Below are positions 43,984 to 54,435 of a stretch of DNA of 64,000 nucleotides, piece after piece. A program made the translations under genes and the position numbers. The notes beneath the pieces were generated by a model. That model was not told the origin of the DNA and searched no databases. It saw nothing but the letters and a program-made list of their open reading frames with translations. Source of the stretch: Bacteroidota bacterium (lineage in GTDB: Bacteria; Bacteroidota; Bacteroidia; Sphingobacteriales; Sphingobacteriaceae); NCBI GenBank assembly GCA_026224775.1, contig JAMFRP010000013.1:186001-250000 (forward strand), read 5' to 3'. The first letter of the stretch is position 1, and each line of letters starts with the position of its first letter.

Positions 43984-44067
43984 GTCATTGCGAGCGAAGC
44001 GTGGCAATCCCCTACTTACAGAGCGGTTCTGCATAGCTTGGGATTGCCACGCTTCGCTCGCAATGAC
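43984..44067. repeat. REP-like palindrome (arm type A/A)
   Basis: gtcattgcgagcgaagcgtggcaatcccc ... gggattgccacgcttcgctcgcaatgac; differs from 53090..53173 at two positions. Confidence 0.95.
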
Positions 44068-51028: not shown

Positions 51029-51586
51029 ATGTCGGTACAGGTTGTTGAGGATGCAGAGATTTTAAGCAAGTTTCAGGATGAGAAAACCCGGAATGAGGCT
51101 TTTAACCTGCTGCTGAAGAAATACCAGCAAAAAATTTACTGGCACATCCGCCGTATGGTGATAGATCATGATGATGCCGATGATATTGCACAGGATGTAT
51201 TTGTGAAGGTTTGGAAAAACCTGCCAACTTTTCGTGCTGATGCGCAATTGTATACCTGGATGTACCGCATCGCCACTAATGAATGCATTACTTTCCTGAA
51301 CAAGAAAAAAGCGAAAAATAATGTTTCTCTGGATGATGTGGACTCTACGCTTGGCGATACATTAGCGGCATCAAGTTATTTTGATGGCGATAAGGCGCAG
51401 CGTAAATTACAGGAAGCACTGCTTACCCTGCCCGATAAACAACGCCTGGTATTTAACATGAAATATTATGAGGATATGAAGTATGAGGAGATATCCGATG
51501 TTGTGGGGACAAGTGTTGGTGCATTAAAGGCATCTTTTCACCTCGCGGTAAAAAAAATAGAAACTTTCTTATTATCAAAAGATTAA
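51029..51586 (+). CDS. RNA polymerase sigma factor, ECF subfamily
   Basis: 'DADDIAQDVFVKVWKNLPTFR', 'LYTWMYRIATNECITFLNKKK', 'LLTLPDKQRLVFNMKYYEDMKYEEISDVVGTSVGALKASFHLAVKKIE'. Confidence 0.95.
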   Translation: MSVQVVEDAEILSKFQDEKTRNEAFNLLLKKYQQKIYWHIRRMVIDHDDADDIAQDVFVKVWKNLPTFRADAQLYTWMYRIATNECITFLNKKKAKNNVSLDDVDSTLGDTLAASSYFDGDKAQRKLQEALLTLPDKQRLVFNMKYYEDMKYEEISDVVGTSVGALKASFHLAVKKIETFLLSKD

Positions 51587-51637
51587 TTTAAAAAAAGTGA
51601 TTAAACCTTTTCATCAAAATTTCATCAAACACTCGAT

Positions 51638-52540
51638 ATGAAAAGCGAAAGTGGAAATAGAGAATGGCTGGATGAATTCATGTCACTTAAACTGGTTAAT
51701 CCCCTGAACCCGTTTACTGTGCCACCAGGCTATTTTGATGAATCGGAACAACAGATCATCTCGGCAGTTAAGCTGGATGAGCTAAAGTCCGGTAAGGGTT
51801 TTACTGTGCCTGAAAATTACTTTGACGAGTTAAGCAATAATATACAAAGCCGCATCAATTTAGAGGAATTAAAATCCAAAGAGGACTTTATCGTACCTCA
51901 AAATTATTTTGATGAATTAAGCAGCAATATACAAAGCCGTATTAACTTGGAGGAGTTTAGGTCGGAAGATGAATTTACCGTACCTCAAAATTACTTCGAC
52001 GAGTTAAGCAGTAACATACAAAGCAGGATAAATATTGAGGCTTACGTAAATAATGATGCCCACGGCCATGCTGTACCCGAAGACTATTTTAACGCCTTTG
52101 AGCAACAAATAAACGCGCGTATCCTGATTGAAGAAACCGTTAGCGAAGAAAGCTTTAGTGTGCCTGCCGATTATTTTGACAAGCTTAACGATGCCATATT
52201 AAACAAAACGGTTAAGCAGGATGTAGTTAAGCGCAAAGGAATAGTTAGGCGAATGTATGCTACCAATACATTCAAATACGCGGCGGCAGCTTGTTTTGCA
52301 GTGTTTGTAGGTACAGGTTTATTGTTAAGCAGATTGTCAACACCGGCAGATGACCATAACAGTTCATTTTTGCACAAGCAATTGTCTACCGTTTCAACAA
52401 GCGATATTCAAAGTTACCTGCAGGATGATGTTGACGCGAATGATACACAACATACCGTTATTGATGAAAATACGCCGGTTAATACCAACAGTTTAACCAA
52501 CGCATTACAGGGTAACGCTGATGATGATACCAACAATTAA
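51638..52540 (+). CDS. Putative anti-sigma-type membrane protein with six tandem ~29-aa VPxxYFDxL repeats
   Basis: Repeats FTVPPGYFDE.., FTVPENYFDELSNNIQSRINLEELKS, FIVPQNYFDELSSNIQSRINLEEFRS, FTVPQNYFDELSSNIQSRINIEA, HAVPEDYFNAF.., FSVPADYFDKL..; one TM 'YAAAACFAVFVGTGLLL'; directly downstream of the ECF sigma gene. Confidence 0.75.
   Translation: MKSESGNREWLDEFMSLKLVNPLNPFTVPPGYFDESEQQIISAVKLDELKSGKGFTVPENYFDELSNNIQSRINLEELKSKEDFIVPQNYFDELSSNIQSRINLEEFRSEDEFTVPQNYFDELSSNIQSRINIEAYVNNDAHGHAVPEDYFNAFEQQINARILIEETVSEESFSVPADYFDKLNDAILNKTVKQDVVKRKGIVRRMYATNTFKYAAAACFAVFVGTGLLLSRLSTPADDHNSSFLHKQLSTVSTSDIQSYLQDDVDANDTQHTVIDENTPVNTNSLTNALQGNADDDTNN
51713..52240 (+). repeat. In-frame tandem repeat array (about 87 bp unit, 6 units) inside 51638..52540
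   Basis: Unit length 29 aa for most copies; units 2-4 are highly similar in both protein and DNA sequence. Confidence 0.9.
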
Positions 52541-52542
52541 TA

Positions 52543-53034
52543 ATGACTAAATTAGCAAAGCATATATTTTTTCTTTTTTTCGTACTATGCGTTGGTAATG
52601 CGTTTGGACAAAGGGGGCCGTATAGAATAGGGCCTCCAAGACCGTCCTATTATAATAGGCCACCAAATAACCAAAACCCGGAACGACGGGTAGAGAATGT
52701 TAAAGTAAATTATTTACGCACAAGGCTAAATTTATCGCAGGAACAAGCCTCTAAGTTCTTTCCCTTGTACCAGGAATATCAGCAGGAGCTTTTTAATGTG
52801 AGAAAATTAAAAAGACAAAATAACTTAAATGCCGCTGATGGCCAGGAGCAGGTGAATAAAGAATTGATGTACGAGAACGAGATCGTTCAGATAAAAATAA
52901 AATTCAATAACGCTTTTCTTAAGGTGCTCACACCTGATAAAGTTAGCGAGCTGTATAAAAGCGAACGCGAGTTTAATGACGAGCTGGTAAGGCAATTGTC
53001 AGAGCGTAATAATCGTCCCGGTCCTCCGCAATAG
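52543..53034 (+). CDS. Secreted Spy/CnrX-like (LTxxQ-type) helical protein
   Basis: Signal peptide 'LAKHIFFLFFVLCVGNAFGQ'; 'YLRTRLNLSQEQASKFFPLYQEYQQELFNVRKLK', charged helical C-terminus. Confidence 0.65.
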   Translation: MTKLAKHIFFLFFVLCVGNAFGQRGPYRIGPPRPSYYNRPPNNQNPERRVENVKVNYLRTRLNLSQEQASKFFPLYQEYQQELFNVRKLKRQNNLNAADGQEQVNKELMYENEIVQIKIKFNNAFLKVLTPDKVSELYKSEREFNDELVRQLSERNNRPGPPQ

Positions 53035-53089: not shown

Positions 53090-53173
53090 GTCATTGCGAG
53101 CGAAGCGTGGCAATCCCCTACTTACAGAGCGGCTCTGCATAGTTTGGGATTGCCACGCTTCGCTCGCAATGAC
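53090..53173. repeat. REP-like palindrome (arm type A/A)
   Basis: 84 bp, nearly identical to 43984..44067. Confidence 0.95.
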
Positions 53174-53235
53174 GTTTTGTTTTTATATAAAAATAAGATG
53201 CAATCGTTTTTAGACAGCTTCTTAGGATTTTGGCT

Positions 53236-53243
53236 TACTTTTG
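53236..53243 (+). promoter_or_regulatory. Bacteroidota -7 promoter element (TAnnTTTG)
   Basis: TACTTTTG ending 4 bp before ATG 53248. Confidence 0.45.
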
Positions 53244-53247
53244 TGCC

Positions 53248-54435
53248 ATGCCAACGTTACGTCAACTTTTTTTAGCCAACAACGCTCAAACTACTGATTT
53301 TCCACTCCTGCTTGAATTTGAACGGGCAGAAGGTGTTTATATGTACAATAGCGAAGGGAAGGCTTATATCGACCTTATTTCGGGCATTGGCGTGAGCAAC
53401 CTGGGGCATAGCAATCCTAAAGTTATCGAGGCGATCAAACAACAAGTTGATAAATACATGCACCTGATGGTTTATGGCGAGTATGTGCAAACCCCGCAAG
53501 TCAAATTCGCTGAGAAGCTAATATCGGTATTCCCCAAAAATCTGCAATCTGTATACTTTACCAACTCAGGCACTGAGGCTGTTGAAGGCGCATTAAAACT
53601 GGCCAAACGTTTTACGGGCAGGCATCAAATCATCGCTTGTCATAATTCTTATCATGGCAGTACGCATGGCGCTTTAAGCGTTATGGGTAACGAGGAATAT
53701 AAACAGGCATATCGCCCCCTATTACCGGGCGTTAATTTCATCCGGTTTAATAATGCTGACGACCTGAGCCAGATCACCGAAGAAACTGCCTGTGTTATTA
53801 TAGAAACCGTACAGGGAGAAGCTGGAATACGTGTGCCTGATATTGCGTATATGCAAGCCCTGCGTGCTAAATGTACAGAAACAGGTACTTTATTAATATT
53901 AGACGAGATACAAGCCGCTTTTGGCCGTACAGGTAAATTATTTGGCTTTGAGCATTTCGGGATAGTACCCGATATTTTATTACTTGCCAAGGCGCTTGGC
54001 GGCGGCATGCCTGTGGGCGCTTTCGCGGCATCGCATAACATCATGTCGGCGCTAAAGGAAAATCCCATCCTGGGGCATATTACTACGTTTGGCGGGCACC
54101 CGGTGTGCTGCGCGGCAGGGTTGGCTGCGCTGGAGGTTTTGTTAGATGAAAAACTTTGCGATCAGGTTGCGGAAAAAGAAACACTTATCCGGTCGTTATT
54201 AGTTCATCCATCTATCAAACAAATTCGCGGCAAGGGACTGATGCTAGCGGCTGAACTGGAAAGCTTCGATCTGAACAAAAAAATAATTGACCGTTGTATT
54301 GAGCATGGTGTAATTGTAGACTGGTTTTTACATTGCAGCAATGCCATGCGCATAGCCCCACCATTGATCATCACGCATGACGAAATCAGGAAAGCATGTG
54401 AAGTGATATTGGAAGCAGTAGAATTCTATAGCTAA
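53248..54435 (+). CDS. Class III pyridoxal-phosphate aminotransferase (acetylornithine / aspartate aminotransferase family)
   Basis: 'GVSNLGHSNPKVIEAIKQQ', 'VYFTNSGTEAVEGALKLAKRFTGR', 'LLILDEIQAAFGRTGKLFGFEHFGIVPDILLLAKALGGGMPVGAF'. Confidence 0.93.
   Translation: MPTLRQLFLANNAQTTDFPLLLEFERAEGVYMYNSEGKAYIDLISGIGVSNLGHSNPKVIEAIKQQVDKYMHLMVYGEYVQTPQVKFAEKLISVFPKNLQSVYFTNSGTEAVEGALKLAKRFTGRHQIIACHNSYHGSTHGALSVMGNEEYKQAYRPLLPGVNFIRFNNADDLSQITEETACVIIETVQGEAGIRVPDIAYMQALRAKCTETGTLLILDEIQAAFGRTGKLFGFEHFGIVPDILLLAKALGGGMPVGAFAASHNIMSALKENPILGHITTFGGHPVCCAAGLAALEVLLDEKLCDQVAEKETLIRSLLVHPSIKQIRGKGLMLAAELESFDLNKKIIDRCIEHGVIVDWFLHCSNAMRIAPPLIITHDEIRKACEVILEAVEFYS

Follow-up and report, generated by a model that had tools for sequence, protein, structure and literature searches.

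The locus raises two linked questions: what a 300-aa single-span membrane protein (51638..52540) with six VPxxYF units at 51713-52240 does between the gene for an ECF sigma factor and that for a Spy-like protein, and what its repeats contribute. We addressed them by computational analysis of the window, meaning the entire 64,000-nt stretch of DNA under study, and of related genomes. The protein is probably a membrane-anchored anti-sigma factor for the upstream ECF sigma factor, built on an amplified, uncatalogued unit and expressed from a predicted feedback promoter; an envelope signal would make it release sigma. The features concerned are as follows.

51029..51586, + strand: ECF sigma factor, 185 aa, with sigma-70 regions 2 and 4 (Pfam, TIGR02937).
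51601..51628, + strand: predicted sigma-dependent internal promoter, TTAAACC (-35), 16-nt spacer, ATCAA (-10), 9 nt ahead of the anti-sigma start codon (motif conservation).
51638..52540, + strand: putative membrane-bound anti-sigma factor, 300 aa, with a six-unit cytoplasmic array (no Pfam or NCBIfam family; orthologs in the genus).
51638..51712, + strand: N-terminal segment xxEWLxxYxSLKQVNxxN (best-conserved part in amino acids; low synonymous divergence in the first codons).
51713..51799, + strand: unit 1, 'NPFTVPxGYF' type (sequence, unit-type comparison).
51800..51886, + strand: unit 2, internal type (sequence).
51887..51973, + strand: unit 3, internal type (sequence).
51974..52066, + strand: unit 4, internal type (sequence).
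52067..52153, + strand: unit 5, internal, diverged (sequence).
52154..52240, + strand: unit 6, last type, membrane-proximal, LNxxILNKTV (sequence, unit-type comparison).
52274..52330, + strand: transmembrane (TM) helix with KRKGIVRR in front (sequence; helix modelled at fused residues 414-435, low confidence).
52331..52537, + strand: predicted periplasmic tail, ~69 aa, LHKQLS..DIQSYLQ (conserved in the ortholog alignment).
52543..53034, + strand: secreted Spy/CpxP-like (Metal_resist) protein, 163 aa (PF13801 and conserved partner).

The sigma gene product matched Pfam Sigma70_r2 (E 2.4e-17) and Sigma70_r4_2 (E 3.8e-14) and also scored above the cut-off for TIGR02937 (sigma70-ECF). A gap of 51 nt separates it from the anti-sigma gene, which is in the same frame, and the Spy-like gene starts 2 nt after the anti-sigma gene; the PF13801 match of the Spy-like protein was weak (E 9.2e-4), under Pfam's own cut-off. 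From sequence and alignment, the repeat protein is predicted to comprise a cytoplasmic N-terminal part, a single TM helix and a periplasmic part, a layout that fits a membrane anti-sigma factor; the cytoplasmic placement of its N-terminus is predicted by the positive-inside rule from the KRKGIVRR preceding the helix. The genome itself holds one locus of this type. Downstream of the operon lies an aminotransferase gene (53230-54435); a distantly related member of the class (L232) also has this gene close to its one-unit operon, which suggests old synteny. An intergenic palindromic element of ~80 bp, with CATTGCGAGCGAAGCGTGGCAATC arms ~32 bp apart, occurs at 53092-53171 and 43986-44065, and 110 copies of the arm were counted in the genome at two mismatches or fewer.

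The initial annotation had proposed six tandem units, and both their number and their coordinates proved exact. The V residues of the units fall at aa 28, 57, 86, 115, 146 and 175, giving spacings of 29, 29, 29, 31 and 29, and each unit of 29-31 aa follows the pattern FxVPxxYFxxLxxxIxxRI. When the protein was shuffled 20,000 times, one VP..YF appeared in 22 shuffles and two in none, which excludes a chance origin of the array. Tandem Repeats Finder called units 2-4 alone, as an 87-nt array with 79% matches and a score of 289. These three units had been described as nearly identical in DNA and recently duplicated, a description that does not hold: pairwise, 58-63 of 84 nt are identical (69-75%), and each pair differs by 6-10 synonymous and 7-9 nonsynonymous codon changes. 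This level of identity, together with the many synonymous changes, indicates that the units are old. No Pfam or NCBIfam model and no solved structure was found to cover the VPxxYF unit in searches of Pfam, NCBIfam and PDB sequences.

The reading of the protein as an anti-sigma factor, also voiced in the initial annotation, has good support from context, namely a sigma gene upstream, a predicted cytoplasmic N-terminus, one TM helix, a Spy gene downstream and the class-wide recurrence of this arrangement. Gene order and the knockout of an operon of the same architecture together suggest the function (PMC13114119). Deletion of cirZ, which lies between the sigma gene cirY and spy in Phocaeicola vulgatus, derepresses both of these neighbours and two genes further downstream (PMC13114119). 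This CirY/CirZ-Spy system belongs to the same class and shares with the window the order of ECF sigma factor, anti-sigma factor and Spy, a likeness drawn from architecture and not from the CirZ sequence; unlike the window, it is described in the available part of the account without a VPxxYF unit, repeats or an internal promoter (PMC13114119). Other Phocaeicola species carry a one-unit protein, and both Bacteroidaceae sigma/anti-sigma/Spy groups have one unit (VPxGYF or VPEGFF).

Several better-known systems share part of this design. CnrH/CnrY/CnrX of Cupriavidus metallidurans (class II) likewise combines an ECF sigma factor, a small single-TM anti-sigma factor and a periplasmic partner, and CnrY wraps around sigma with a short cytoplasmic stretch of helix (PMC7406223). 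Sequence similarity of the window protein to any solved anti-sigma chain was undetectable, and profiles A1 and A2 searched against PDB sequences matched no anti-sigma chain, CnrY included. CnrY is not known to form an array. Escherichia coli sigmaE/RseA with Spy/CpxP shares the envelope logic of the window operon, but the class I anti-sigma domain of RseA is absent from the window protein by Pfam; the class I domain more broadly (RseA, RskA, zinc type) gave no Pfam or NCBIfam match above cut-off. EcfO/Reo and Das/Dma of Bacteroides are, as here, Bacteroidota-specific membrane anti-sigma factors, yet they carry a C-terminal beta-barrel in the outer membrane (PMC9308784, PMC13088901), whereas the window protein has only ~69 residues after its TM helix. 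The candidate model NF052375, with weak matches to two relatives (E ~0.016), was dropped as a different family, and a defence library gave no match.

The anti-sigma family is widespread and apparently absent from the curated family libraries searched. Orthologs were present in 138 of 150 genomes of the host genus (116/118 among good ones), and the order of sigma, repeat protein and Spy-like gene was kept in all 110 genus loci examined. Beyond the genus, a profile built from 18 orthologs matched 294/301 family genomes and 130/296 class genomes; the 82 readable family and class loci had sigma upstream in 80 cases and Spy downstream in 79. Within Bacteroidaceae, the sigma factor was found in 39 of 41 genomes, and the anti-sigma proteins of the main group (104-144 aa) have one unit; such single-unit proteins are made of the N-terminal segment and one unit only. 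Among named Bacteroidaceae records (P. massiliensis, P. coprophilus, B. fragilis, B. xylanisolvens and others), 74 readable loci carried the unit in 67 cases and the promoter motif in 71; the 80 named loci include none from P. vulgatus. A second, paralogous sigma/anti-sigma/Spy operon was observed at four Bacteroidaceae loci (L273, L274, L275, L276), with an MPYxVPEGFF-like sequence in place of VPEGYF and a sigma/anti-sigma gap too short to house an intergenic promoter.

The gap between sigma and anti-sigma contained TTAAACC-N16-ATC[TA]A at 180 of 206 testable loci (genus 109/110, family and class 45/68, Bacteroidaceae main group 25/27, other 1/1), against a shuffling expectation of about two in all. 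The spacer was 16 nt with one exception among the cases listed, and outside the genus the TAA stop codon of sigma usually opens the -35 element. The E. coli sigmaE promoter is GGAACTT-N16-GTCTAA, and we take the AAACC-N16-[AG]TC[TA] motif to resemble it. A scan of the window's own genome allowing one mismatch or none returned 15 motif sites, versus 2 with a reversed control; of the 14 further sites, 8 sit 9-38 nt ahead of genes whose products appear by eye to be exported, including lipoproteins, a beta-barrel and a DUF1573-like protein. The exact motif lies mostly at the sigma/anti-sigma/Spy operon in relatives of the genus. The conserved position of this predicted promoter between sigma and anti-sigma implies feedback, and it is presumably active and recognised by the upstream sigma factor. 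In the host genus 9 nt separate the predicted -10 element from the ATG, so that the anti-sigma mRNA may have almost no leader. A search of the available literature found no paper on tandem anti-sigma units or on a TTAAACC-N16-ATC[TA]A promoter.

Since sigma and anti-sigma share a frame across their short gap, the two were folded as a single chain in which the sigma stop codon TAA was artificially translated as Ser. Mean pLDDT was 47 and pTM 0.21 for the window chain, and 75.9 and 0.31 for the one-unit Bacteroidaceae chain L242; each unit was modelled as a helix, and docking on sigma is unreadable at these pTM values. Foldseek matched the L242 model best to sigma factor chains.

Counted with a unit HMM on 110 genus proteins, the array has 4 units in 15 proteins, 5 in 21, 6 in 54, 7 in 18 and 8 in 2. 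Outside the genus the number is mainly 1-7, with 2-3 in intermediate lineages and one in distant relatives, named Bacteroides and Phocaeicola among them; one unit is probably the ancestral state. The invariant copy number that the initial annotation listed as counting against its proposal was not observed: the number ranges from 4 to 8 in the genus and from 1 to 8 in the class. The sigma-gene tree requires at least 26 copy-number changes, and some cases with 4-7 units come from single-contig genomes, which makes assembly errors unlikely. Identity among internal units is higher within a gene (66.5%) than between species (60.7%), and first and last units hold their own types, as tandem turnover predicts; the array therefore appears to change by tandem turnover over species time. 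By identity, the first unit resembled single units only slightly more (0.357 vs 0.323), and HMM scores showed no such preference. Its conservation within clades means that copy number may be nearly neutral.

The units are nevertheless constrained in sequence. The core P..[YF][FY] is intact in 408 of 411 internal units, 110/110 first units and 110/110 last units, and dN/dS is 0.10 for internal units and 0.08 for last units; linkers give 0.20, the TM helix 0.07 and sigma 0.027. The first unit reaches 0.25, but with a depressed dS (0.21) and a low dN (0.053). Amino-acid change is twice as high in linkers (dN 0.127) as in units (0.065), and dN is lowest in the N-terminal segment (0.035). Purifying selection acts on every unit type, and the core, intact in almost all units with dN/dS near 0.1, indicates that each unit is kept for its sequence and is not a mere spacer. 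In the first codons of the anti-sigma gene (51638-51790), pS was 0-0.065 at codons 2-16 versus ~0.43 in internal units; an RNA element behind this low synonymous divergence was unsupported (fold z-score -1.34, no Rfam match).

The likeliest role of the array, to which we give slightly less than even confidence, is that every unit is able to hold sigma, with copy number setting capacity or avidity. A competing explanation, somewhat unlikely in our judgement, is that sigma binding falls to one module only, either the N-terminal segment with unit 1 or the last unit, and that the remaining units make the protein a hub by contacting something else (further sigma factors, RNA polymerase, the membrane or a protease adaptor). 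The three kinds of unit (first, internal and last) are indeed distinct and conserved, the N-terminal segment is the part with the lowest dN, and single-unit proteins consist of precisely this segment and a unit; the FxVPxxYFxxL core common to all types is nonetheless the simplest sign of one shared ligand, and single-unit proteins manage with one unit. A role of the array as spacer or flexible arm, with copy number drifting neutrally by unequal exchange and sequence hardly important, is improbable: the spread of 4-8 copies across species and the homogenisation of internal units within genes would fit such drift, but nearly all units retain the core and the linkers change faster than the units.

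The initial annotation had further suggested a fast, phase-variable rheostat in which repeat number shifts by slipped recombination within populations, a proposal that we regard as very improbable, since, although copy number does vary and one relative (L034) has two units 98% identical in DNA, it differed in 0/11 pairs of species representatives at <5% sigma divergence and in 1/35 at 5-10%, a stability between close species at odds with fast change, and units 2-4 of the window have diverged as described above. The difference between very close relatives that marks phase-variable contingency loci was not seen among these species representatives. The two L034 units are units 3 and 4 of an eight-unit array and represent a recent tandem duplication.

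On the preferred reading, the unit, in which an amphipathic helix comes after a short FxVPxxYF stretch, would serve as a sigma-holding module that is single in distant relatives and tandemly amplified to 4-8 copies in the host genus. In the unstressed cell the cytoplasmic array would hold sigma at the membrane, and an envelope signal, relayed by the periplasmic tail together with the Spy-like partner, would free it. Freed sigma would then transcribe anti-sigma and Spy from the sigmaE-like promoter, coupling negative feedback to repair, and would probably also transcribe other envelope genes. In its broadest form, which we advance tentatively, the proposal describes a Bacteroidia-wide anti-sigma class whose 29-31-aa sigma-binding unit, in 1-8 copies, makes a polyvalent sigma sponge that is tuned over evolutionary time and governed by a feedback promoter on the sigma stop codon.

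One study reports that only 6% of Bacteroidetes ECF sigma factors adjoin a class I anti-sigma domain, versus 32% over all phyla (PMC7406223), and the way in which this phylum holds its sigma factors is therefore largely open. For one widespread envelope-stress sigma factor, gut Bacteroides included, the VPxxYF unit offers a candidate answer. The natural series of 1, 2, 3 and 4-8 units supplies ready variants for asking if a sigma switch can be tuned by valency, while a readable regulon comes with the stop-codon promoter.
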